A stretch of 64,000 bases of DNA from Marinobacter sp. ELB17. GTDB taxonomy: Bacteria > Pseudomonadota > Gammaproteobacteria > Pseudomonadales > Oleiphilaceae. The notes under the pieces were generated by a model. It did not search any database and was not told the origin of the DNA. It was given only the letters and a program-made list of their open reading frames with translations. The stretch spans positions 248,001-312,000 of the forward strand of contig NZ_AAXY01000004.1 of the NCBI RefSeq assembly GCF_000169375.1. Direction: 5' to 3'. Numbering within the stretch: the stretch's first letter is position 1; each line of letters opens with the position of its first letter. Position numbers and translations under genes: made by a program. This document shows, in pieces, positions 24,046 to 59,141 of this stretch.

Positions 24046-25104
24046 TCAATAATGCGAGCGGGTGTCGCCTTCTGGGCTTTCGGTAGGCACCAGAGCCTTG
24101 AACAGGTCTTGGACTTCCAGAACCCCGACCTGCTTACCTTTGCGAACCACGCGATAGGTGAGGCTGGTGTCGCCTCCAGACCGCGCAATCACAGATTCCA
24201 GGTTGTCTCTTTCACCGATATCGCCGGCCACGTTGTCAGGCGCTTCCGTGGTTTTCTTCATGATGGACCGAACCCGCAGTACCCGAGCGCGATTGATGTC
24301 GCTGATAAAGTTGACGATGTAAGGATCGTTCGGGTGCATCAGTATTTCTTGCGGCTCACCCTGTTGAACAATATAACCTTCCTTGAGTATGACCAGGTGG
24401 TCTGCCAGTTTCAGTGACTCATCCAGATCGTGGGTGATGAAAACGATGGTCTTGTGCAACTCGTCCTGAAGCTCCAGCAGCAGGTCTTGCATGTCGGACC
24501 GTATCAGCGGATCCAGCGCCGAGAAGGCCTCGTCCATCAGCATGATCGGTGAGTTAGAGGCCAGTGCCCGGGCGATACCAACGCGCTGTTGCATGCCACC
24601 AGACAATTGGTGCGGGTACTGGTATTCGTTGCCTTCCAGACCCACGCGGGCGATCCATTTTTTGGCTTCCGCTTCGAATTCCTCAATTTTATGGCCGCGC
24701 ACGGAAAGCGCCATCCCGGCGTTTTCAAGAACGGTTTTGTGCGGCAGCAGCGCGAATTTCTGGAACACCATCGACATGCGTTCCCTGCGCAGGTTACGCA
24801 ACTGGTCTTCGTCAAACGCCAGCACGTTTTCGCCATCGACTGCAATTTCACCGCCGGTGGGCTCAATCAACCGGTTGAGATGCCGAATGAGCGTGGACTT
24901 GCCAGATCCTGACAGCCCCATGATGACGGTTACATGGCCCTCGCGCATATCCACGTTGATATCCTGAAGGCCCAGCACGTGCTGGTGCTTTTCGAGCAGT
25001 TCGGCCTTTCCCATGCCTTGTTTTACGTACTCAAGGGCAACGTCGGGAGTAGGGCCGAAAATCTTGTACAGGTTCCGGATTGAAATTTTGATGTCCCGAT
25101 CCAC
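24046..25104 (-). CDS. proV: Betaine/proline ABC transporter, ATP-binding protein (ProV/OpuAA type)
   Basis: Energises uptake of a quaternary-amine osmoprotectant. The 352-residue product has Walker A GLSGSGKST, the signature LSGGMQQRVG, Walker B IMLMDEAFSALD and the family's N-terminal extension (KIFGPTPDVALEYVKQGM). The C-terminal tail (about 270-352) is short and resembles a partial CBS domain, the ionic-strength sensor of this family. Third gene of a binding protein-permease-ATPase operon; 11 bp after the permease gene. Confidence 0.93.
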   Translation of the reverse strand: MDRDIKISIRNLYKIFGPTPDVALEYVKQGMGKAELLEKHQHVLGLQDINVDMREGHVTVIMGLSGSGKSTLIRHLNRLIEPTGGEIAVDGENVLAFDEDQLRNLRRERMSMVFQKFALLPHKTVLENAGMALSVRGHKIEEFEAEAKKWIARVGLEGNEYQYPHQLSGGMQQRVGIARALASNSPIMLMDEAFSALDPLIRSDMQDLLLELQDELHKTIVFITHDLDESLKLADHLVILKEGYIVQQGEPQEILMHPNDPYIVNFISDINRARVLRVRSIMKKTTEAPDNVAGDIGERDNLESVIARSGGDTSLTYRVVRKGKQVGVLEVQDLFKALVPTESPEGDTRSHY

Positions 25105-36140: not shown

Positions 36141-38201
36141 TTAACTAAGCCCCAGCACTCTCTTACGCTGCTCTGCCCAGGTATTAATTAAGTGGTCGAC
36201 CGCCAGGCCAATAAAGGCAACGCATAAGCCGAGCACGATGCCTTGGCCCATGCCGTTGGCTTCAGACAAAGACTGCATGATCAGCTGACCTAAGTCGTCG
36301 GTACCGATAAAGGCGCCGATGATGATCATAAACAGTGAAAATACAACGGTTTGGTTGATGCCCAGCATAATGTGCGGAAACGCCAGAGGCAGCTCAATTT
36401 TCAATAAACGCTGCGTGCGGTTAACCCCTGACATGGAGCCGGCTTCCTGCAAGCTTTTCGGCACGTTACTCAGCCCTTCCACGGTGTAACGTGTGGCAGG
36501 AATAGTGGCGTACACGATCACCGCAATAAGCACTGATAAATCGCTGACACCAAACAGCATGATGACCGGGATTAAGTAGACGAACGACGGAAACGTCTGA
36601 AACGTGTCACACACCAGCAACATAAACTTGGTTGCTTTGGGGCTTCGCGAACACAAAATGCCGACGCTACAGCCAATCGTTACGGAAATGATCACTGCAA
36701 AGGTGGTCATGTAGGCCGTAATCAGAGCGCGGTCCCACCAGGGTGTCAGGGCAATAAAGGCAATAAAAGCCGTCGCAACAATCGCAGAGCGAAGGCCGCC
36801 AACGATGTAACCGGTACCTGCAACCAGGAACAGAGTGGCTGCGACGGGCATCGATAAATAGGCTTCTTTCATGGGCATCAAAATCGAGGTAATCATGAAG
36901 AAGTTGAAGCTTTGCACACTGTCGTAAGTGTTGGTGATGATCCAGTCTACAATAGAATCCCAGAACTTTTCGGTAGTAAGCCCTTGTGATTCATGAATAA
37001 AATAAAAGTAGTTGGCCTTGTCTGGAAAAGCCATGGACGCGATATAGGCAACAATGGAGGTGAATATCAAAATCCCCACGAAGGCGAGTGAGTACTTGTG
37101 ACGCAAATGAAACGGTACGTCAGCAAAGTAATCAACCTGTTTTTTTGCCCAGGCCAGGGATAACCTATCCAGAACCACCGCAATCAGGACAATGGATATA
37201 CCAAGTTCGAGGGCCTGGCCTATCTTGAGCATATTCAAAGACACAAGTAAGTCGTAGCCTAAGCCCTTTGCGCCAATAAACGATGCGATAACGGCCATGG
37301 CCAAACACTGCATGATGACCTGGTTAACGCCGATTAAAATGTCATGGCGTGCGGTAGGGATGAGTACTTTAAACATAAGCTGGCGCGAGTTGCAGCCACT
37401 CATCATGCCGGCTTCCACCACTTCTGGAGAGACCTTTTTAAGGCCGAGAATGGTGAGGCGAATCATTGGGGGGGTGGCAAAAATAACCGTTGAAATAGCA
37501 CCCGCATGGTCACCAATGCCGAAGAACACCACCACCGGAATCAGGTACGAGAAGTGGGGCATAGTTTGAGCCACGTTCAGCAGTGGTGCGAGGACAGCCT
37601 CGAAGGTTTTGTTCCTGAAGGCGATGATGCCCAGGGTTAACCCCAGCAAAACCGATAAAGGTACGGCCACCAACACAAACGATAGGGTTTGCATGGCGGG
37701 TGTCCACTGACCAAACACGGCAATGTAAATGGTGCTGATGCCGGCTAAAAGTGACAGGTTGCGGCCACCAAGATACTGTCCTGCTAAAAAGGCACCCGCA
37801 GCAACAGCGGGCCACGGCAGTGCCGGGATTCGAGCCCACTCGTTTTCGCTGATAAAGTCCCAGCTGGTGAACGCCACAACGGTTTTGACGCCCCCTAACA
37901 GGAGCTCACGAATCAAATTGATGCTGAACAGAACCACGCCAGACAGGTATCGAGTAAACTCTTTCATCATGGTCGACTGTTCGATGATGTCTAACTCGGC
38001 ATCGTAAGTCTCGACCACCCAAAAATCATCGATGAGGAACTTAAGGCCATCGTTGACAACGTCAGGCAGCAACCAGAATCGGGTTTCTTGCAGGCGCCAC
38101 AGGTTGCCACCTGTGGCTGGATCTATGGCCATTACAAGCGCAAAGAACACCACCAATAGGGCGACAAACTGCATCCATTTATGTTCGGTAAAATATTGCA
38201 T
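36141..38201 (-). CDS. Betaine-type ABC permease with two fused permease domains
   Basis: Inner-membrane permease of the second quaternary-amine or TMAO-type importer. At 686 residues it holds two complete ProW-like domains: the first with EAGMMSGCNSRQLMFKVLIPTA, the second with QEAGSMSGVNRTQRLLKIELPLA, each an EAA loop that docks an ATPase. About twelve membrane segments in all. Fused double permeases are known in some marine importers, including TMAO (TmoV-like) systems. It is the last gene of an operon, 17 bp after the ATPase gene. Confidence 0.9.
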   Translation of the reverse strand: MQYFTEHKWMQFVALLVVFFALVMAIDPATGGNLWRLQETRFWLLPDVVNDGLKFLIDDFWVVETYDAELDIIEQSTMMKEFTRYLSGVVLFSINLIRELLLGGVKTVVAFTSWDFISENEWARIPALPWPAVAAGAFLAGQYLGGRNLSLLAGISTIYIAVFGQWTPAMQTLSFVLVAVPLSVLLGLTLGIIAFRNKTFEAVLAPLLNVAQTMPHFSYLIPVVVFFGIGDHAGAISTVIFATPPMIRLTILGLKKVSPEVVEAGMMSGCNSRQLMFKVLIPTARHDILIGVNQVIMQCLAMAVIASFIGAKGLGYDLLVSLNMLKIGQALELGISIVLIAVVLDRLSLAWAKKQVDYFADVPFHLRHKYSLAFVGILIFTSIVAYIASMAFPDKANYFYFIHESQGLTTEKFWDSIVDWIITNTYDSVQSFNFFMITSILMPMKEAYLSMPVAATLFLVAGTGYIVGGLRSAIVATAFIAFIALTPWWDRALITAYMTTFAVIISVTIGCSVGILCSRSPKATKFMLLVCDTFQTFPSFVYLIPVIMLFGVSDLSVLIAVIVYATIPATRYTVEGLSNVPKSLQEAGSMSGVNRTQRLLKIELPLAFPHIMLGINQTVVFSLFMIIIGAFIGTDDLGQLIMQSLSEANGMGQGIVLGLCVAFIGLAVDHLINTWAEQRKRVLGLS

Positions 38202-38218: not shown

Positions 38219-39277
38219 TTAGTTATTAACTGGCATGCTGTTAGTTTCACCAAACAAGACGTCTATCATAATGTTGCGATTTAAAGCGCCAACAATATTG
38301 CCCTCGGCATCAATGACAGCCACTGGGTTTTGCTCGGTTAGCACGGATCCAGCTACGGTTTCGATAATGGCATTGGCAGAGACAGTGACGTCGCTCATCG
38401 TGGCGGTTGCGTCGTATTCTTCCATGATGGCTTTGCAAGAAAGTACGCGCTCACGCGGCACGCCACGGGTAAACTTGGCGACGTACTCCGTGGCTGGCTT
38501 GAGTACGATGTTGGCTGGGGTATCAATTTGTTCGATGACGCCGTCTTTCATAATGGCGATGCGGTCGGCAAGGCGTAGCGCCTCATCGAAGTCGTGGGTA
38601 ACGAATAAGATGGTTTTGTGCAATACACTTTGTAAGCGCTGGAATTCGTCTTGCATTTCCCTGCGAATCAGTGGGTCCAGGGCTGAGAAGGGCTCATCGA
38701 GAAACCAGATTTCAGGTTCTACGGCCAATGAGCGGGCAATGCCGACACGCTGTTGTTGACCACCGGAGAGCTGGCGGGGAAAATCGTTTTCGCAATTTGT
38801 GAGCTCTACCAGGTTCACCATGTCCATCGCACGGGCCATGCTGTCGCGAGTGCTTATGCCTTTTGCCTGTAATGGCAAGGCAATGTTTTCTAGAACGGTT
38901 TTGTGAGGCAGAAGGGCAAAACTTTGGAATACCATGCCCATTTTATTACGGCGAATGTTGATGAGTTCCTTTGCATTCATAGCAAGCAGGTCTTCACCAT
39001 CAATAAAAATATCGCCTGCAGTTGTGTCGATTAGCCGTGAAATACAGCGCAGAAGTGTGGATTTGCCAGAGCCTGACAGGCCCATGATGACGAGCATTTC
39101 ACCTTTGTGCACTTCAAAAGAAGCGTTGCTGACACCAATAACACATCCTGCTTCAAGTAACGATGCTGTATCTACTTTTCCGCCTGATTGTTCCAGAATT
39201 TTTACAGCGTTAGCGCCAAAAATTTTATAGACAGACTCGCACTTGATGACCCGCTGAGCTGACGTTGACATAATCAA
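38219..39277 (-). CDS. Betaine-type ABC transporter, ATP-binding protein (second system)
   Basis: The 352-residue ATPase has Walker A GLSGSGKST, signature LSGGQQQRVG and Walker B IWFLDEPFSALD, with a short C-terminal CBS-like region (AVIDAEGNIVGALNRNIMID). It differs clearly from the first system's ATPase. Likely pairs with the fused double permease to form the ATP-driven import engine. Whether the cargo is TMAO, choline or betaine is open. Confidence 0.93.
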   Translation of the reverse strand: MIMSTSAQRVIKCESVYKIFGANAVKILEQSGGKVDTASLLEAGCVIGVSNASFEVHKGEMLVIMGLSGSGKSTLLRCISRLIDTTAGDIFIDGEDLLAMNAKELINIRRNKMGMVFQSFALLPHKTVLENIALPLQAKGISTRDSMARAMDMVNLVELTNCENDFPRQLSGGQQQRVGIARSLAVEPEIWFLDEPFSALDPLIRREMQDEFQRLQSVLHKTILFVTHDFDEALRLADRIAIMKDGVIEQIDTPANIVLKPATEYVAKFTRGVPRERVLSCKAIMEEYDATATMSDVTVSANAIIETVAGSVLTEQNPVAVIDAEGNIVGALNRNIMIDVLFGETNSMPVNN

Positions 39278-39475: not shown

Positions 39476-40405
39476 TTACAACCAGGCTTTCCAGGTTGCT
39501 TCGTTATCAGCCAGCCATTTAGTAGCGGCTGCTTCGTGGGTCATACCATCGATGTCTACTAATGCTGCCATATTGCCGATATCACTTTTGGTAAAGGATA
39601 CGTTGTTAAAGATTTTATAAGCAGTTGGCCATTTTGCGGGCATTTGATAATACGCCGCCTTCTTCAACCAACCTGCTGGGGGCGAGCCACACTTGCCATC
39701 ACCGCCGTCTGCTTTCTTGCAGCCATCTGTATACGCGGGGAATTTAACGAAGCTGCCACCGTCACCGGCATCGGTGAAGTTAGGTGACCAGTTAAATACC
39801 ACCACGGCACGGTTGTCTTTAGCCGCAGACTCCAGTTCAGCCCAAAGTGCACCGGATGACCCGGCAAACTTGGCTGTAAAGTTCATGTCCAGTGCTTCAA
39901 TGCGATCCAGGGTTTCCTGGCCATGCCAGTCCATAGGGCCGTCCAGATAACGCCCTTTACCGCCACTGCCTGGCGTTGCAAACAGTTCGGCACAATCGTT
40001 CAGTGCTTCCCAAGAGGGTAGGCCCGGGCACAAATCGCCTACATAAGCAGGGTACCACCACTCTTCTTGAGTAGCAGAGGCGTGCGTGCCTACATCAATA
40101 ATACCGCCGGCGTCTAAAGCATTGTTAAAAGACTTGCCAAAGGTAGATTGCCATACTTCGTGAGCAATAGTGACGTCACCGTTACGAACAGATTCGTAAA
40201 CTGCTTGGCTATCAGCAGGTACGTAAGAAACGTTATCGCCAATGCTTTCAAAAATACCGCCAATAACGTAAGCCATAGTAATTTGGCTGGTCCAGTTATG
40301 GGTGGCAATTACAATAGGCTCTTTTGAATCTGCTTGGGCTACAGTCGCGCCAAGCACCAGTGAGCTAACGGCAGCGGCAGTAGCAAGTTTATTTAAAAAT
40401 CTCAT
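39476..40405 (-). CDS. Betaine/TMAO-type ABC transporter, substrate-binding protein (second system)
   Basis: Periplasmic binding protein of the OpuAC fold. ATG 40405 lies six bases after GGAG; two codons upstream is another ATG. The 309-residue product has a signal peptide cleaved after about GATVAQA and aromatic-box tryptophans (THNWTSQ, EVWQSTF, EEWWYPAY, MDWHGQ, FNWSPNF), as in betaine and TMAO (TmoX) binding proteins. The first gene of the operon, followed by a stem-loop. A cysteine-rich insert (DGCKKADGGDGKC) is unusual. TMAO specificity is a hypothesis supported by the nearby tmm gene and the shared upstream element. Confidence 0.88.
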   Translation of the reverse strand: MRFLNKLATAAAVSSLVLGATVAQADSKEPIVIATHNWTSQITMAYVIGGIFESIGDNVSYVPADSQAVYESVRNGDVTIAHEVWQSTFGKSFNNALDAGGIIDVGTHASATQEEWWYPAYVGDLCPGLPSWEALNDCAELFATPGSGGKGRYLDGPMDWHGQETLDRIEALDMNFTAKFAGSSGALWAELESAAKDNRAVVVFNWSPNFTDAGDGGSFVKFPAYTDGCKKADGGDGKCGSPPAGWLKKAAYYQMPAKWPTAYKIFNNVSFTKSDIGNMAALVDIDGMTHEAAATKWLADNEATWKAWL

Positions 40406-40411
40406 ACACAT

Positions 40412-40630
40412 CTCCGAAAAGTATTATTATCCGTAATGGATGATTACGTACTTTCTTTGATTACAGGCAAAGTCCTGTCTCGTTTTCAACGCAAAATTAT
40501 ATCTGGGCAAAAAAATAGACGACAATGATGGCGTCGTGAGCTTTTTTAAAAGCACGTCATTAATCCGGCGCCCAAAATGACACTTCTAAAAGTCACAATG
40601 ACTTCGGTTTTTAGGCAGTGCGCGCCAGGG
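40412..40630. other. Intergenic stretch upstream of the second ABC operon
   Basis: About 220 bp before the conserved element; contains no gene. It must hold the operon's promoter and leader, but I see no clear -35/-10 pair. Confidence 0.4.
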
Positions 40631-40856
40631 TCGAATGTATCAATGGCGCAATTCTATGAAGGCTGTATCTGTCTTTGAACAGGCTGTATCTGTCGGTGAA
40701 ACAGAGGGCCGAGGGCGGGCAGGCCGCCGATGAAACGCGAGATCTCGAGAATACGCCGGAAGAGAGCGCTCGAACTGGTCAAGCAGGAAAACTACTTGAT
40801 AACTCGTATACCAGAGCCCTAAGGCTAACACATCTTGGCTGTCAGCGTTTTTTCAC
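40631..40856 (-). ncRNA. Candidate structured RNA or leader element, copy 1
   Basis: About 210-bp element also present at 58778-58987. It folds into similar stems in both copies: CTGT/ACAG; GGCC/GGCC (707-710 with 722-725 of the 40,000s); GCGAG/CTCGT enclosing TCGAG/CTCGA and CGC/GCG; and TCAAGCAG/CTACTTGA. Between the copies C-G becomes T-A in the second stem and G-C becomes T-A in the last stem, with wobble changes elsewhere. The plus strand ends GCGTTTTTT. Minus-strand reading places it upstream of the second ABC operon; the plus strand faces the PAS gene. A 21-bp stretch is duplicated inside this copy. Confidence 0.5.
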
Positions 40857-41005
40857 TTGAGGAAAACCGGTTAGAGCCAATTCTGAAAAATAAATGTACC
40901 CCTGTCTATCGTGTTGCCGGGGTTGATACAGCACGGGCTGCTGTGCGTATAATTTCCGGGTGATCCTTAAAACTCGGATCAGTTTCGTAATACAAAAGGA
41001 AATGT

Positions 41006-44690: not shown

Positions 44691-44845
44691 CTGGTGAGGC
44701 TGTATTCCTACTTCGTAAGTGACATGCTCGCCCTGGTGGTAGTGGGTATCTTTTTGATCCTCGTTCACCGCCTTACCAGGCTTTGATCGGCTATTTCTTG
44801 CATTTCTGCAGGTTGCAGCTCCCTCTTGGTTTCTGTAGCCTTAAA

Positions 44846-44867
44846 ATTAATTGAACGATCAATTAAT
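44846..44867. promoter_or_regulatory. BetI operator
   Basis: ATTAATTGA-ACGA-TCAATTAAT, a 22-bp near-palindrome 31 bp before the betI ATG. The ATTGAACGnTCAAT core matches the operator bound by BetI in enterics and pseudomonads, relieved by choline. Confidence 0.85.
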
Positions 44868-44897
44868 AATTTCAGGACGATCAAACAGCGGATAATC

Positions 44898-45551
44898 ATG
44901 GCAAAAGTTGGAGTAAAAGACACTCGAAAACAGCAGCTTATTGAAGCAACGATGGAGTCGATTGCCGAACTGGGGATGCAGAAGACCACCATTATCAGCA
45001 TCAGCAAACGTGCGGGAATGTCGTCGGGCATCATCAGCCACTATTTCGGTGGTAAGCAGGGCCTGATTGAAGCAGCGCTACGATATTTACTGGACCAGCT
45101 CGGAAAAGAGCTGCTTGAACGTATGGCGAAGACCGACGGGTCGCCGGAACAGCGTCTCAATTGCATCGTTGATGCCAACTTTTCCAATTTCCAGCGCTCG
45201 GCACTGGCGGCAAAAACCTGGTTGAGTTTCTGGGCGCGGTCCACGCATGAGCCCGGGCTGCAGCGTTTGCAACAGATCAACAATGCGCGTCTCTATAGCA
45301 ACCTGCGCTACGCCTTCGCTCAAGTGATGGAGCCTACGGCAGCGACCGAGGCAGCGAGGCAAACGGCTGCGATGATAGACGGCTTCTGGTTGCGCAGTGC
45401 CTTGAGTCTGGACCCACAGGAAAGTTTCGAAGCGGGTGAGCGGCTGTGCAAGCGCTTTGTACAGGACACGCTGGCCCGGCCCCAGACAACATCCGTTAGC
45501 GTCACTCAGAGAGAACAACCGTTAGAGAGAACAATCCATTATTCACGTTAA
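44898..45551 (+). CDS. betI: Choline-responsive TetR-family repressor BetI
   Basis: Represses the choline-to-betaine genes until choline is present. ATG 44898 gives 217 residues starting MAKVGVKDTRKQQLIEATMES, with the BetI-type helix-turn-helix (TIISISKRAGMSSGIISHYFGGK) and a ligand domain with the WLSFWARS segment. An in-frame ATG 72 bases upstream lies over the operator and is not used. It leads the betI-betB-betA operon, 14 bp before betB. Confidence 0.95.
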   Translation: MAKVGVKDTRKQQLIEATMESIAELGMQKTTIISISKRAGMSSGIISHYFGGKQGLIEAALRYLLDQLGKELLERMAKTDGSPEQRLNCIVDANFSNFQRSALAAKTWLSFWARSTHEPGLQRLQQINNARLYSNLRYAFAQVMEPTAATEAARQTAAMIDGFWLRSALSLDPQESFEAGERLCKRFVQDTLARPQTTSVSVTQREQPLERTIHYSR

Positions 45552-45565
45552 GGTTGTAAGTTTTT

Positions 45566-47035
45566 ATGTCCCATTCAATACCTCGTTTACAGAACTTCAT
45601 TCACGGTCACTTCTTTGCCAACCATACCGGTGAGGTGTTTCCGGTTGTCAATCCGGCCACGGGCAAAGTGATCTACGAAGTAGAAATAGCGGATGAATCT
45701 GTGCAGCAGGCCGCCATTGAGAGCGCGCGGGCTGGATTTATAGAGTGGGCTGCCATGCCCGCCGTGCAGCGCAGCCGTATTCTGCTGAAAGCCGTCGCAT
45801 TACTGCGTGAACGTAACGACGAGCTGGCCGCTATTGAGGTTCTGGATACCGGAAAACCCTTGCAGGAAGCGCAAGCGGTGGACATCGTAACCGGTGCAGA
45901 CTCTATTGAATTTTTTGCTGGCCTGGCGCCGTCGATTGAGGGTAACCAGCAGGATCTTGGGGGTGATTTCTATTACACCCGCCGAGAGCCGCTGGGCATC
46001 TGCGCCGGTATCGGCGCCTGGAACTACCCACTACAGATCGCCTGTTGGAAGTCTGCTCCGGCACTGGCGTGTGGCAACGCGATGATCTTCAAACCGTCTG
46101 AAGAAACCCCAATGGGCGCCACCAAACTGGCCCAAATTTATATTGAAGCAGGTGTTCCCGCCGGTGTGTTTAACGTCGTGCAGGGCGCGGCGGAAGTCGG
46201 CTCCTGGCTGACTCACCACTCTGAAATTGCCAAAGTGTCGTTTACCGGCGAAGTAGGCACCGGCAAGAAAGTCATGGCCGCGGCGGCGACCACTGTGAAA
46301 AGTGTCACCATGGAACTGGGTGGCAAATCCCCGCTCATTATTTTTGACGATGCTGATCTGGAGAATGCCATCTCGGCCGCCATGGTGGGTAATTTTTACA
46401 CCCAGGGCGAAATCTGTACCAACGGCACCCGAGTGTTCGTGCATGAGGATATCTATCCGAAATTCATGGAGCGTTTGCTGGAGCGTACCCGCAACAACAT
46501 CCTGCCGGGCGATCCGATGAACCCAAAAACCAACTTTGGTGCGCTTATTTCTGACAAGCACCGCAAGCTGGTATTGAGCTATATCGCTAAAGGTGTGGCA
46601 GAAGGCGCAACACTCCGTCATGGAGGTCATGCGTTTGAGCCGGAAGATTCCAAGGGCGGCTACTTTGTGGAGCCGACCATCTTCACTGACTGCACTGACG
46701 ATATGGCCATCGTGCGGGAAGAGATTTTTGGGCCGGTGATGTCGGTGCTCACGTTCACCACCGAAAATGAAGTGATTGATCGCGCTAATGCGACTGAAAC
46801 CGGACTGGCGGCGGGCGTGTTTACCAATGATATTCGCCGTGCCCACCGGGTTGTTCATCAGATGCAGGCTGGTATTTGCTGGATTAACAGCTACGGAGCT
46901 TCGCCGGCAGAAATGCCCGTGGGCGGCTACAAACTCTCTGGTATTGGCCGCGAAAATGGCCGCGAGACGATCTCTCACTACACCCAGCTCAAGGCTGTGT
47001 ATGTAGGTATGGAAGACATCGACGCACCATTTTAA
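45566..47035 (+). CDS. betB: Betaine aldehyde dehydrogenase
   Basis: Oxidises betaine aldehyde to glycine betaine. The 489-residue product has [39 protein letters not shown] (catalytic glutamate) and [14 protein letters not shown] (nucleophile cysteine), typical of BetB. Second gene of the operon; it sits 26 bp before betA. Makes the second step of betaine synthesis, after BetA. Confidence 0.97.
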
Positions 47036-47061
47036 TTTCGGAGATACAAAGGAGAACGTGT

Positions 47062-48747
47062 GTGAAAGAAAACCAATACGACTTCATCATTGTGGGCGCG
47101 GGCTCTGCTGGCTGTGTGCTGGCTAACCGCCTGACCGAAGATACCCAGCGTAAGGTTCTGCTACTGGAGACCGGTGGTAGCGACAAAAGCATCTTTATTC
47201 AGATGCCGACCGCCTTATCCATTCCGATGAACACCAAAAAGTTCGCCTGGCAGTTCGAAACCGAACCGGAGCCTTATCTGGACAACCGGCGCATGCATTG
47301 CCCACGCGGCAAAGTGCTGGGCGGATCGTCGTCCATCAATGGCATGGTGTACGTGCGTGGTCACGCTCGCGACTTTGATGAATGGGAATCGGAAGGCGCA
47401 GAAGGCTGGAATTACCAACAGGTACTGCCATATTTCAAAAAAGCGGAGACCTGGGCATTCGGCGGTGATCGCTACCGTGGCGGTGACGGTCCGTTGGGCG
47501 TAAACAACGGCAACAACATGCAAAACCCACTGTATAAGGCCTTTATTAACGCAGGTCAGGACGCCGGTTATTTGCCCACAAAGGACTATAACGGCGCCCA
47601 GCAAGAAGGGTTTGGCAGCATGCACATGACGGTTAAAAATGGTCGTCGCTGGTCTACTGCGAATGCGTATCTGCGGCCGGCTATGGATCGCCCTAATCTG
47701 ACCGTGGTTACCCATGCTCTGGTGCACAAAGTGCTTCTCGACGGCAATACCGCTACGGGTGTGCGTTACGAACAGAGCGGTAAGATCCATGAGGTGAAAG
47801 CCACTGAAGAGGTGATTTTGTCGGCAGGGTCCATTGGTTCTCCGCACCTGTTGCAGCTTTCCGGCATTGGTAACCGCGAGGTTCTGGAAAAGGCCGGCAT
47901 TGAGGTGAAGCACGAGCTGCCGGGAGTGGGTGAAAACCTGCAGGATCATCTGGAGTTTTATTTTCAGTTCCGCTGTGAACAGCCGGTGTCGTTAAACCGC
48001 AAGCTCGACTGGTGGAACAAACTGAAAATAGGCGTGCGCTGGATTCTGAAAAAAGATGGCCTTGGCGCCACCAACCACTTCGAATCTTGCGGTTTTATCC
48101 GTTCCAAAGCGGGCGTGGAATGGCCAGATATGCAATACCATTTCCTGCCTGCGGCAATGCGTTATGACGGCAAAGAAGCATTTGACGGCGACGGATTTCA
48201 GTTGCACGTTGGCCACAACAAACCCAAAAGCCGCGGCACCGTAAACGTAAAGTCTGCTGATCCAAAAGAAGCACCACGGATACAGTTCAACTATTTACAG
48301 CACGACGCCGACCGGGAAGGTTTTCGGGCGTGCGTTCGCCTGACCCGGGAGATTATTAACCAGCCAGCAATGGATGAGTACCGCGGGGAGGAAATTCAGC
48401 CAGGTACCGCGGTTGACAGCGACGAGCAAATTGACGCTTTCGTTCGGCAGACGGTAGAGAGCGCTTATCACCCATCCTGCACTTGCAAGATGGGCATCGA
48501 TGAGCGCGCAGTGGTAGACCCGCAAACCCGGGTTCATGGCATCAAAAATCTGCGTGTTGTGGATTCATCGATTTTCCCAACCATACCCAATGGCAACCTG
48601 AACGCGCCTACCATCATGGTTGCTGAGCGAGCCGCCGATCTGATCCGGGGCAAGGAGCCCCTCCAATCTTTAGATGCACCTGTTGTCATGGATGAACAAT
48701 GGCAGGTACGTCAGCGTCCAGGAGAGGCAAAGCGGCAACAGAGCTAG
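47062..48747 (+). CDS. betA: Choline dehydrogenase
   Basis: Membrane-associated GMC-family flavoenzyme oxidising choline to betaine aldehyde (and further). GTG 47062 follows AAAGGAGA by seven bases; the 561-residue product has the FAD-binding [18 protein letters not shown], the GMC signature [21 protein letters not shown] and a C-terminal active-site block [12 protein letters not shown]. Last gene of betIBA; a GC-rich GCCCGCG/CGCGGGC hairpin after the stop is a weak terminator candidate. Confidence 0.97.
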
Positions 48748-49918: not shown

Positions 49919-50674
49919 ATGAATATTTCAAAAAAAATACTGTTACCGCTAATTATAGGTGGTTTGTTTTCAGGAAGTACAATAGCAGCGTCTGGCCCGT
50001 CTCCCATAAATTTGAGAAGTGCAGGAAGTTTTGCCGTTCTTAGTCAGAGCGGTATTACCGATGTTTACCGCTCGGCAATTGTTGGCGATGTGGGTACAAG
50101 TCCTATTACTGGTGCAGCGTTACTCCTTGAGTGCGACGAAGTAACCGGAAATATATATACCGTCGATGCGGCTGGTCCGCTTCCCTGTTACGCCATTGCT
50201 CCTAGCTCGCTGTCTGTAGCAATAAACGATATGGGATTTGCATACGAAAACGCAGCAGGACGAACATCGCCCGATTTCACAGAACTTGGTGCGGGTGAAA
50301 TTGGCGGATTAACCCTTGCTCCCGGACTTTACAAATGGTCTTCAGATCTTAACATTAGCACTGACGTCACTTTTTCTGGCGGTCCGAATGATGTCTGGAT
50401 CATGCAGGTGTCAGGCGAACTGACCGAGGCCAGTGCAGTAAAAGTAACCTTAGCGGGTGGCGCCTTAGCTAAGAATATTATCTGGCAGGTTGCAGGTTCA
50501 GTAACGATTGGAACCCATGCACATTTTGAAGGTGTGATACTGGGTAAAACATTGATCGCAGTGAACACGGGTGCGTCAGTTAATGGCAGATTGCTGGCAC
50601 AAAAGGCCGTGACACTTCAAAAAAGCAACATTACAGCGCCTGACAATTTAGGGCTCATAGAACTAAACCCCTAA
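49919..50674 (+). CDS. DUF3494 ice-binding protein
   Basis: Secreted ice-binding (antifreeze) protein of the DUF3494 beta-helix family. The 251-residue product has a signal peptide (cleavage near STIAASG) and the family blocks INLRSAGSFAVLSQSGITDV, AIVGDVGTSPITG, DMGFAYENAAGRTSPDF, GGLTLAPGLYKWSS and GGPNDVWIMQVSGEL, ending with NGRLLAQKAVTLQ. It stands alone, in an AT-rich island with its own palindromic upstream site, and looks acquired. Such proteins shape the brine pocket habitat of sea-ice bacteria. Confidence 0.95.
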   Translation: MNISKKILLPLIIGGLFSGSTIAASGPSPINLRSAGSFAVLSQSGITDVYRSAIVGDVGTSPITGAALLLECDEVTGNIYTVDAAGPLPCYAIAPSSLSVAINDMGFAYENAAGRTSPDFTELGAGEIGGLTLAPGLYKWSSDLNISTDVTFSGGPNDVWIMQVSGELTEASAVKVTLAGGALAKNIIWQVAGSVTIGTHAHFEGVILGKTLIAVNTGASVNGRLLAQKAVTLQKSNITAPDNLGLIELNP

Positions 50675-52342: not shown

Positions 52343-53443
52343 TCATCCGGCGGCAACAAGCCGCTCGGGCGATGCCGCAGCTACGCCGGAGTGTTTTCGG
52401 AAACGTTCTTCGGCGAGCGTGTTGGCCACCGCACCGGTTGGCACGCCACTGCGATCCGAGCGTGTAAAGATCTCGGTAAGCGTGCGGCCTATGCCTTCCA
52501 CATGGGCGCTTACCTTCTCTGGTGGAGCGCCGGTGCGTTCGTAGAACACGTCGATGATGCCGCCGGCGTTAATGGCGAAGTCCGGTGCATAAAGGATGCC
52601 GTGGTCCTTTAATGCCTGATCGTGATCCGGGCGTTGCAACAGATTGTTGGCGGCGCCCGCAATGATCGTGGCTTTCAGGCTGGGAATGCTGTCGTCGTTC
52701 AGCACGGCGCCCATGGCGCAGGGGGCAATCACGTCCACCGGCAGGAACAGAATGTCCTCGGCTGAAGCCGCGTGGGCACCCAGTTCATCCACCGCACGTT
52801 GCATGTTCGCGTGATGAATGTCGTATACCCAGAGTTCTGCGCCGGCTTCCCTCAGATGACGGGCCAGGCGGTAACCCACGTTGCCCACACCCTGAATAGC
52901 CACCTTCAACCCGGTTAGATCCTCGCGGCCGAGCTTGTGCTTTACTGCTGCTTTCAAACCCACAAAGGTGCCGTAGGCTGTGGTGGGGGAGGGGTCTCCA
53001 TTACTGGGCTGGCCGTCAAAACCGATGCGCTCGACAAGGCCGGCGACGTGCTTCGTATGCCGCCCCATGATTTTTAGATCTGCCACGCTGGTGCCGGAAT
53101 CTTCGGCGGCAATGTACTGGCCGCCAAGCCCTTCGAGGTGTTTACCTATGGCTTCCAGCAAGGATTCGCTTTTTTGCTTGCGCGGGTCGCCGATGATCAC
53201 CGATTTGCCGCCGCCAAGGTCAAGATTGGCCAGTGCGGATTTGTAAGTCATGCCTTTCGAAAGACGCAGTACATCGCGCAGGGCTTCTTCATCGCTGGCA
53301 TACGGGAACATTCTGCAACCGCCCAGAGCGGGACCACGGGAGGTGTTGTGCACGGCTACAATAGCTTTGAGCCCGGTTTCCGGGTCACAGACGAACGACA
53401 GGTGTTCGTGGTTATCAAATTCGGGATGGCTGAATACGGTCAT
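52343..53443 (-). CDS. ldh: Leucine dehydrogenase (Glu/Leu/Phe/Val dehydrogenase family)
   Basis: NAD-dependent oxidative deamination of branched-chain amino acids. The 366-residue product has [14 protein letters not shown], the lysine-containing [20 protein letters not shown] in parts, and the Rossmann motif [13 protein letters not shown]. Size and the [14 protein letters not shown] start match leucine dehydrogenase. Upstream of the SNF transporter gene, with which it may form an operon. Confidence 0.92.
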
Positions 53444-56187: not shown

Positions 56188-57279
56188 TCATGAGTTGGCC
56201 GCACTCGCCGTAGCGGTGGACGTTTTGGTGTCGCTCGACACGGCACGGACTACCTCAAGCACTTCGTCGCTTTCCGTGAACATGACAAACCCGCCTATTA
56301 CGAACAGGGCCAAGCCTGCAAGGAAGTTCCAATCCGGAAATTCGAGGGTGAACGCGGCGAGGAAGATGACGGCAAAAAGCCCGTACAACGCCGCAATCGC
56401 TTGCCCTCGCCCAACGCCTATCAGTGGGAAAGACTTGTACCAGGAGACATAGCAGAAGGCGAAGCTCACGCCCGCCAGCATCAGCCAGCCGATGACCGCC
56501 CAGTTGAACGTGGCGATGACCAGTTCCACAACCGGTTGGTCGGTAAAGAGGTAGATCGCTGGTAAAATCAGCACAACCCAATACAGGACTTCGGCCGTGA
56601 ACCTGACCGTAATACCCACATCCGGATCGGCCACATCCAGCCCTCGGCCTGCGATTGCGCCCTCTACACCCCAGCCAATGGCTGCCATTGCGCCGCCCAG
56701 ATAGCCAAGCCAGCCGGCGTCGCCGGTGCCTGTGATTTCAGCAATAATGCCGGGTGCATAGACTGTCACGCCACCTGCCAGGATGATAAAAATGCCCACC
56801 GCTGCGCGTTTGGTGATCTTCTCCTGATACCAGAGCCTGGCCAGGGTGGCGCCGATGATGGGGTACATCAGCGCTGAAATGGCCGCGAAGGCTCCGCCGA
56901 TGTAGCCTATCGCCAGATACGAACCAAAGATGGCCATCGGGCCACCAAATATAGCGCCGATGAAGAACCACTTGGATATAAAACGCATCTGCCTGATGGT
57001 GCGAACGTATTCCCCCAGTTTGCCCAATACCCCGTTCCAGACAAACAGAAAGAACAACACGGCAATGGCGTTGAAGGTTGTCAGCACCGCTGCAGCCAGC
57101 AGAAACTGGGCGTTGGTATCGAAACTCAAATTAATATAGGGCGCTTCAAACCACACAGCGGACCCTGGTACATACCAGGCACCCCAGAGCACGGCGGCCC
57201 ACATAGCCCACATAAAGCCCCAGCGTATGCTGCTGGAGGTGAAACGCGACCGAGCCTGGCTCAGGCTTGGTTGATTCAT
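56188..57279 (-). CDS. DMT/EamA-like transporter of the tmm operon
   Basis: The 363-residue protein has about ten membrane segments ([21 protein letters not shown] start; [38 protein letters not shown] near the second repeat). Its ATG overlaps the tmm stop by four bases (ATGA), so the two are coupled. Substrate could be TMA import, TMAO export or another methylated amine; not determinable here. Confidence 0.85.
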
Positions 57280-58646
57280 ACAGTCTCCTTTGCTGGCTGG
57301 GTTTGCTTCACTTTGAGAAAGGCATCCAGAGAATCGTCCATCGCATCCATCCAGGGCGTATGGTGCACAGGCGCCAGGGTGCCCGTCAGCGTGGAGCGGT
57401 AGCTCTTGTTGCGGTACCCAAGAATGTCCTCTTCCTTATCGTGTTCCCACTGCTTGAAAATATCGGCAACGGCGGTTACATCGAACGCCGGGTAGTCGGT
57501 CGGTTCAAGCAGATCCTGTATGTAGGCGGCCTGAAAATCGATCTCGTCGACGGGATCGGCGAGCTTCAGCTCGCGGGCGACCCATTCACGGCTATCGGCC
57601 GCCATGGCGTCGCTTGCCGGCAGTGTGATGCGGCCGAGCATCACATCACGGGCATACCAGGCCTGGGCGTCGAACATGTTGAAGGTGTAGTACTGATCCT
57701 GCATGCCAAGGAATATCAGTTTGGGATTGGGCAGGGAAACGATGCCCTTGTACAGGCCTTCCGGGTACATCCGGTTGTGCGTGGTCAGCGTCAATTCGTT
57801 GGGCAGGAACGGGAAGTGGTGCTGGTACCCGGTACACAGAATGATCGCGTCGACTTTTTTGCTGGAGCCATCCTTGAAATGGGCCGTCTTGCCGATCACT
57901 TCCGTTAGCAACGGCACTTCGGTGAAGGACTCCGGCCACTCGAAGCCCATGGGCTGTGAACGATAGCTGAAGGTGACCGATTTGGCGCCGTACTTGTGGC
58001 ACTGTGTGCCTATGTCTTCTGCGGAATAGCTGCTGCCGATCAGCAAAAGATCCTTACCTTTGAACTCGCAAGCGTCGCGGAAATCGTGGGCGTGCAGCAC
58101 ACGGCCGGGAAACTGCTCCAGACCTTCAAAATAGGGCACGTTGGGGGTCGAAAAGTGCCCGGTAGCAACGATGACATGGTCGAACTCTTCGGTGCTCAAT
58201 TCGTCCTGTTTTAGGTCCCGCACCGTAACCGCGAACTTGTCGGTGGCTTCGTTGTGGTCAACCCAGTGCACCGCGGTGTTAAAGTGGATGTACTGTCGTA
58301 CATTGCTCTTGGCCACACGGCCCATAATGTAGTCGCGCAGCACCGCGCGGGGCGGGTAAGATGGGATAGGGCGACCAAAATGTTCTTCGAAGCTGTAATC
58401 CGCGAACTCCAGACATTCCTTGGGGCCGTTTGACCATAAATAGCGGTACATGCTGCTGTGCACGGGCTCGCCATAGGCGTCCAGGCCCGTTCGCCAGGTG
58501 TAGTTCCAAAGACCGCCCCAGTCGCTCTGTTTTTCGTAGCATACGATTTCGGGGATATCTGCACCGGCGTCGCGGGCTGCTTCAAAAGCACGTAATTGGG
58601 CCAAGCCGCTGGGGCCTGCACCTAAAATGGCAATTTTAAAACTCAT
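57276..58646 (-). CDS. tmm: Trimethylamine monooxygenase (FMO family)
   Basis: NADPH-dependent flavin monooxygenase that oxidises trimethylamine to trimethylamine N-oxide. The 456-residue product has the FAD motif GAGPSG (9-14), the NADPH motif GSSYSAED, the FMO signature [11 protein letters not shown], and long matches typical of bacterial Tmm: [41 protein letters not shown]. Length equals that of characterised Tmm proteins. First gene of a four-gene operon; the 210-bp conserved element lies about 130 bp upstream. Confidence 0.93.
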
Positions 58647-58777
58647 AATGATTCCTGTTTAAGGCGTTGTATCGAGCACCGGGCAAGAGCGGCCAGGGCG
58701 ACAACTGGAAGCGAAAAAGGGCTCAGCTTTGACCGGTAACGATCAACCCATGAGGTTTCGCAGTGAGACACACCAAA
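58647..58777. other. tmm leader and promoter region
   Basis: Between the conserved element and the tmm start. No clear -35/-10 pair; the ribosome site CAGGAATCATTATG-like segment is at the start. Confidence 0.35.
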
Positions 58778-58987
58778 TTCGGATTGACCGATGGCGGAAT
58801 AGGATGCAGACAGCAACTGTCGGAAGAGACAGAGAGTCAGGAGTGGGAAGACCACAGATCTGAATGCGAGATGTCGAGAAAACGCCTGAGGGAAGCGCTC
58901 GGATGGCTAAAGCATAAGAAAAATGCTTGGTGACTCGCACGTCAGGGGCGGCACCTTAGCACATCTTGGGCTGCGGCGTTTTTGCTG
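58778..58987 (-). ncRNA. Candidate structured RNA or leader element, copy 2
   Basis: Second copy of the element at 40631-40856. Stems: CTGTC/GACAG (817-821/828-832 of the 58,000s), GTC/GAC (36-38/50-52 of the 58,800s), TGCGAG/CTCGCA, TCGAG/CTCGG, CGC/GCG and AAGCAT/ATGCTT. Loops of the first, second and third stems contain GGA. The plus strand ends GGCGTTTTTG. The minus-strand copy precedes tmm as copy 1 precedes the second ABC operon; the plus strand faces the chemoreceptor gene. Confidence 0.5.
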
Positions 58988-59141
58988 GGTGGCCGTTTAA
59001 GCCTGAGAAGCTCAAGTTATCTTCCACGATGCCGATACGTCGATAACAGGATTGGGGTTTTTGTGTTGACCCGAGCCGGGTCTCTAGATTAGATGTCTTG
59101 CTTGTAAACGCCACAATCATAACAACAATGGAGATTCTACC

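Follow-up and report, generated by a model that had tools for sequence, protein, structure and literature searches.

A structured leader RNA upstream of the TMAO genes tmm and tmoX in Marinobacter and related genera, a candidate for a new riboswitch class

The window, by which we mean the whole stretch of 64,000 nucleotides from Marinobacter sp. ELB17 that was analysed, carries two minus-strand operons, one with the trimethylamine monooxygenase gene tmm and one encoding a TmoXVW-like importer. The genes concerned are as follows.

57276..58646, minus strand: tmm, trimethylamine monooxygenase (NF058570, 828.7 bits against a cut-off of 675)
56188..57279, minus strand: DMT/EamA-family permease gene, overlapping the end of tmm (Pfam EamA)
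39476..40411, minus strand: gene for a tmoX-like substrate-binding protein (Pfam OpuAC; best PDB relative 4xz6, 6.6e-103)
38219..39277, minus strand: ABC ATPase gene, TmoV-like (TIGR01186 above cut-off)
36141..38201, minus strand: ABC permease gene, TmoW-like, 686 aa, with two BPD_transp_1 stretches

The NF058570 match and the proximity of the OpuAC protein to 4xz6, which we take to be Ruegeria pomeroyi TmoX, bear out the gene identities proposed in a preliminary description of the sequence. The DMT/EamA permease partners tmm, has its own leader in Marinomonas algarum, and is a candidate methylated-amine transporter. A betI-betB-betA choline oxidation cluster (44826-48747) lies between the two leader-bearing operons, and a second betaine/choline-type ABC ATPase is encoded at 24046-25104 (TIGR01186 above cut-off); the covariance model introduced below found no leader copy near the latter. 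The neighbourhood also holds an ice-binding-protein-like gene (49919-50674; NF045625, 345 bits, under the cut-off of 400) and a tryptophan-dehydrogenase ScyB-like gene (52343-53443, below cut-off), which was matched only as fragments in the genomes G026 and G072.

The preliminary description had noted one sequence occurring twice, at 40631-40856 and 58778-58987, in the same orientation to the minus-strand operons. The two intervals are indeed homologous (blastn, 69.6% over 168 nt, E = 7.8e-10), but they leave out the 3' portion of the tmm leader; we place this leader at about 58946 to 58647. Both stretches are parts of longer 5' leaders of the minus-strand operons and not free-standing repeats. 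In the architecture drawn for these leaders, helix P1 (GCGAG/CTCGC) encloses P2 and P3 and is followed by P4, P5, P6, P7 and P8. The tmm leader (copy B) comprises the following features.

58953..58963, minus strand: extended -10 promoter-like motif, TGTGCTAAGGT (TG.TA...T, in the same place in 26/26 aligned copies)
58647..58946, minus strand: tmm leader RNA, from the putative +1 at about 58946 up to the start codon of tmm
58934..58941, minus strand: P1, 5' strand
58863..58870, minus strand: P1, 3' strand
58909..58929, minus strand: P2 hairpin, which contains the "last stem" of the preliminary description
58874..58902, minus strand: P3 hairpin, the most conserved block (CGAGCGC...GCG..TTCTCGA)
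58843..58855, minus strand: P4 hairpin (pair 111-121 canonical in 26/26, set E 0.031)
58809..58838, minus strand: P5 hairpin (pair 128-155 canonical in 26/26, set E 0.028)
58769..58797, minus strand: P6 hairpin (174 Watson-Crick, 42 G-U, 16 A-C and 17 other cells)
58722..58754, minus strand: P7 hairpin, terminator-like (-9.8 kcal/mol, T-run 3 nt later)
58713..58721, minus strand: T-run after P7 (about +227, 72 nt before the tmm start codon)
58671..58704, minus strand: P8 hairpin upstream of the Shine-Dalgarno region (88 Watson-Crick, 18 G-U, 2 A-C and 3 other cells)

A consensus scan around copy B reported neither a promoter nor a terminator, and P7 was not picked up by it. The corresponding features of the tmoX leader (copy A) are these.

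40822..40832, minus strand: extended -10 promoter-like motif, TGTGTTAGCCT
40412..40815, minus strand: tmoX leader RNA, from the putative +1 at about 40815 up to the start codon of tmoX
40803..40810, minus strand: P1, 5' strand
40733..40741, minus strand: P1, 3' strand
40780..40798, minus strand: P2
40745..40773, minus strand: P3
40714..40728, minus strand: P4
40661..40710, minus strand: P5, with a 20-nt direct repeat of one arm
40621..40650, minus strand: P6
40509..40537, minus strand: terminator-like hairpin with seven T (one of several sites given by the consensus scan; differs from P7 of copy B)
40496..40525, minus strand: sigma-70-like promoter 3' of the leader core, TTGTCG-18-TATAAT (consensus scan)

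The leader measures 293-302 nt in all 15 tmm-type leaders and 258-568 nt in the ten tmoX leaders measured. On the operon strand, the motif TG.TA...T lies 6-7 nt before an invariant CTG that opens the conserved RNA in 26 of 26 aligned copies; the alignment start had been picked by a pattern with TG and TA, without the final T, and earlier pattern-free alignments show the same block. The spacing from the motif to CTG fits an extended -10 promoter with its start at CTG. No -35 box was recognised, and a sigma-70 scan found nothing at the -10-like motif.

The distribution of the leader among relatives was then analysed. BLAST with the copy from genome G006 gave matches in 11 of 124 genomes of the same genus, and a covariance model (R1) built from 15 copies found 16 strong copies in 11 of these genomes; at E ≤ 0.1 it reported 15 of the 124, the four beyond the 11 being weak. 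Among 390 genomes sampled from the order, R1 found seven strong copies outside the genus (E from 1.2e-17 to 5.6e-59), four in genus g28, two in g75 and one in g129. No strong copy outside the order was found in 369 genomes sampled from the class, where the best other match was partial (E = 1.1e-4). A degenerate P3 pattern scanned over one genome each of 84,980 species yielded 40 stretches, of which R1 confirmed nine, in eight genomes. Four of them were additional copies, in Neptunomonas antarctica, Halopseudomonas laoshanensis, H. sabulinigri and Pseudomonas neustonica; the others lie in G006, G064, G072 (two) and Marinomonas algarum. The M. algarum leader has the same sequence as that of G487, and g28 is therefore taken as Marinomonas. 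This gives 27 distinct strong copies (16 + 7 + 4) in Marinobacter, Marinomonas, Halopseudomonas, Neptunomonas, one species filed as Pseudomonas and the genera g75 and g129. Weak or partial R1 rows were left aside (five from the genus, five from the order, three from the class and five from the pattern-scan search); one of them, on C15 of G006, sits just upstream of tmm.

The search of related genomes supports the gene association proposed earlier: all 27 strong copies lie upstream, and on the same strand, of tmm, tmoX or the DMT gene. Among the genes searched, the next one downstream is tmm in 15 cases (one of them truncated, in G061), a tmoX-type transporter gene in 11 and the DMT permease gene that partners tmm in one, the last in Marinomonas. 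Two Marinobacter genomes have tmm and the transporter genes in a single cluster behind one leader: in G132, the leader, tmm, the DMT gene, tmoX, V and W follow each other on one strand; G107 has the same order, but only a fragment of the DMT gene. In the window, G004, G026, G124 and G072, tmm and tmoX are apart with a leader at each, and in G004 and G026 both copies are syntenic with the window. The joint cluster in G132 and G107, compared with separate leader-bearing tmm and tmoX elsewhere, points to a single ancestral operon, split or duplicated together with its leader. G061 (L075, 8976-9344) retains the leader before a tmm shortened to about 123-125 matching codons, with tmoX behind it.

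The association was also examined from the side of the genes. Within the genus, tmm is present at E ≤ 1e-100 in 11 genomes, and a strong leader stands directly before it in seven. G006 and G094 have a divergent leader before tmm (R1 E = 1.8e-4 and 8.1e-7 with filters off), with which the sequence before tmm in G076 aligns by eye. This divergent subfamily of three Marinobacter genomes (L085, L086 and L087) lies about 400 nt before tmm and retains the promoter motif, a P6-like hairpin and a T-run (less exactly in G076); the stem letters of the P6-like hairpin differ, as judged by eye. In G090, whose Tmm is 64% identical, no leader was found before tmm, and the sole R1 row of note (12.4 bits) lies at the distal end of the gene, on the opposite strand. 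Conversely, among the 11 leader-bearing genomes searched, four with a leader before tmoX (G064, G217, G420 and G386) lack a Tmm at E ≤ 1e-20, and this speaks against a leader devoted to TMA oxidation alone. G487 encodes Tmm elsewhere in its genome, without a leader match upstream.

Comparison of the window's tmm leader with eight others gave identities of 0.66-0.81, against 0.30-0.46 for the 150 nt upstream. Third codon positions in the first 480 nt of tmm were 0.57-0.69 identical in the same eight comparisons. The leader exceeded them in seven of eight; against G107 it was below (0.66 versus 0.69). The conservation lies downstream of the -10-like motif and extends in tmm-type copies to the start codon.

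We next examined base pairing. The eight letters that had been cited as compensatory changes (C40709/G40723 and T58837/A58851; G40786/C40792 and T58915/A58923) are exact. In helix P2, the stem at 40786/40792 is the apical pair. Most copies can also form the second stem (40709/40723; 24 of 26 at its varying pair), but this stem excludes P4 and P5, which are better supported. Over 15 copies and 45 pairs, 92.8% of cells are paired, falling to 32-46% when the partner is slid, and both sides have changed in 26 cells, where shuffles average 9.9; the very sequences used for these counts had served to draw the structure. Over 26 copies and 59 pairs, the operon strand has 91.9% of its cells paired, the opposite strand 84.8%. 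The 26-sequence tests omit G386 (rearranged P1/P2), the three divergent copies and M. algarum (duplicate of G487). Reconstructed changes within helices, read on the operon strand of the 26 copies, lead to G-U in 51 cases and to A-C in 21 (p = 5e-4), compared with 27-41 and 19-33 in slid controls. For this count and the pairing percentages over 26 copies, G487 was left out for P2 and P6, the A-type copies and G064 for P7, and the A-type copies, G064, G420, G487, G094 and G217 for P8. P6 shows the opposite bias (seven G-U versus 11 A-C events), and P7 pairs poorly (30 of 158 cells non-standard).

Covariation was assessed with a tree-aware script of our own, not R-scape, on all 26 sequences. Thirteen of the 59 proposed pairs reached p < 0.05, against 2-5 in slid controls, and two reached a set E < 0.05, against none. 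In the all-pairs version of the test no pair was significant (best pair E = 0.8, mostly not canonical); the covariation is significant in part only. Genes may have travelled between genera along with the leader, and the copies are thus not independent.

Folding supported the longer leaders rather than the intervals first described. Stretches close to those intervals (40631-40860 and 58760-58995) fold unremarkably on either strand (z of +1.02 and -1.30 on the plus strand, -0.30 and -1.36 on the minus strand). The tmm leader with its putative ends has a minimum free energy z of -2.21, with one of 100 shuffles as stable, and its predicted fold includes P1-P4, upper P5 and P6, while P7 and P8 as drawn are absent. 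Across the 26 leaders, the mean z is -1.51 on the operon strand versus -0.72 on the other, with values below -2 in nine versus three of 26.

Two further pairings were considered. A CTGG/CCAG pairing around P2 can be drawn for many copies, but it is disrupted in the Marinobacter B-type ones and was left out; we make no claim for an antiterminator of CGGUCAA (P6) with UUGAUCG (P7), whose fit to copy B and a few further copies was judged by eye alone. No conserved leader peptide was seen, as ATG frames vary among copies and the tmm leader of the window has no ATG frame of at least 10 codons. In some B-type copies, including that of the window, a GTG at +6 begins an open frame of 55-65 codons, which is absent elsewhere.

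A search against the RNA families of Rfam 15 gave no match at the gathering threshold in the window and four weak matches (E 6-9) around the two copies at E up to 10. Seven other loci gave none with E up to 1. Among the matches listed in a literature search, which mostly covered sources other than subscription journals, a riboswitch for TMAO, TMA, choline or glycine betaine did not appear. Guanidine riboswitches are small-amine sensing leaders before transporters, DMT-type exporters included; the likeness lies in this position before transporters, but no Rfam family was matched here at threshold. The proX motif is described as a riboswitch candidate found mainly in Spiribacter, with 17 representatives almost only before proX, for which its authors speculated about an osmoprotectant ligand and proposed control by P2 occluding the ribosome site (PMC8632094). 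Both it and the present RNA are structured leaders of a betaine-type transporter gene in salt-water bacteria, but by that description the hosts and the gene set differ (PMC8632094). The opuB motif, with five paired substructures, likewise precedes a compatible-solute-type ABC transporter gene; it has 205 representatives, mostly in Enterobacteriaceae, its P1 uses the Shine-Dalgarno sequence, and its authors tied the ligand to shikimate and aromatic amino acids (PMC11109978). Compared by description, its hosts and reported ligand are different from those considered here (PMC11109978).

The sequence data make it very probable that the tmm and tmoX operons share a structured leader RNA without an Rfam 15 match that is very tightly bound to TMAO genes. 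The leader reading of the preliminary description is strengthened by 27 gene-bound strong copies whose pairing is better kept on the operon strand, and a structured 5' leader RNA of functionally linked genes, here with presumed transcription, is one feature of riboswitches. We favour, by a modest measure, a metabolite switch that would form a new riboswitch-candidate class. Transcription would start at the extended -10 promoter on the operon strand; the first ~140 nt would fold into P1 around P2 and P3, then P4 and P5, with P6, P7 and its T-run, and P8 following before the start codon. The leader would act as a cis-regulator common to tmm, which makes TMAO, tmoXVW, which imports it, and the partner DMT permease. 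Its 5' part would bind a methylated-amine metabolite, for which TMAO is the likeliest candidate, an assignment we make tentatively, and binding would alter read-through at P7 and the T-run or ribosome access behind P8. We infer the start, the ligand, the direction of regulation and the expression platform from this arrangement.

Transcription attenuation is our preferred platform, and translation control behind P8 may be the alternative. Ten of 15 tmm leaders and six of 10 tmoX leaders have a hairpin that is followed within 0-3 nt by a T-run, at varying positions and as counts without a shuffled control. A leader linked to precisely the genes for making and importing TMAO narrows the ligands to a short list and allows a direct test, and it could act as a TMAO sensor. 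A slightly bolder proposal, and accordingly a little more speculative, is that of a new class and the first riboswitch for a methylated-amine osmolyte (TMAO), which would coordinate production, import and possibly export in marine Pseudomonadales and perhaps replace TmoR/TmaR-like regulators. Even without a ligand, this would be a sharply gene-bound structured RNA absent from Rfam.

The strongest competitor to a metabolite switch is a structured leader without a small-molecule aptamer, which is bound by a protein (antiterminator or repressor) or controls mRNA stability. All structural evidence from the sequences fits it equally, and ~300 nt is long for one aptamer; we regard it as rather unlikely, yet worth serious attention. 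A shared DNA control region is less probable still. Here, protein sites around the promoter would be homologous through the operon split or duplication, and the structure would be incidental. The homology takes in the promoter-like motif, the all-pairs covariation test was negative, and tmm of R. pomeroyi is controlled by the DNA-binding proteins TmaR and TmoR, the latter responding to DMA and TMAO (PMC13390433). Regulation of tmm is thus common to both systems, but TmaR and TmoR are protein transcription factors and the candidate here is an RNA leader; the word riboswitch is absent from the main text of that report (PMC13390433). Against a DNA control region, the conservation lies downstream of the motif and reaches the start codon in tmm-type copies, and an excess of G-U over A-C on one strand is not expected from a DNA site.

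The preliminary description had also offered a small RNA on the plus strand, with GGA in several loops and a T-run at its end, which would be of the CsrB/RsmZ kind. GGA triplets and GCGTTTTT do occur on the plus strand, but the T-run is the reverse of the A-rich tract upstream of the -10-like motif, and the promoter-like motif and the G-U bias are both on the other strand. With the poorer pairing and weaker folding of the plus strand given above (84.8% versus 91.9%; mean z -0.72 versus -1.51), no Rfam match, and copies tied to the same few genes, such an RNA is highly improbable. A mobile or dispersed repeat, which the preliminary description would have recognised by many scattered copies or terminal inverted repeats, is hardly credible: five genomes have two strong copies each, but the window's genome holds only two found by the covariance model (which was built from these among others), no inverted repeats of at least 12 nt surround the copies, these are syntenic in G004 and G026, copy B matches none of 72,556 plasmid records, and none of the 27 strong copies sits at unrelated genes. 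BLAST of one copy against its own genome did not list the other.

Some features are particular to copy A. One arm of its P5 is duplicated by a 20-nt direct repeat (40660-40700, 21-nt spacing), and this extra arm is present in the five Marinobacter A-type copies and absent from the other aligned copies. Since a promoter-like TTGTCG-18-TATAAT follows its leader core, transcription of the transporter may also bypass the leader. The terminator-like hairpin and the sigma-70-like promoter directly after it, which lie between the leader core and tmoX (40496-40537), have similar counterparts, by eye, in the A-type copies of relatives.
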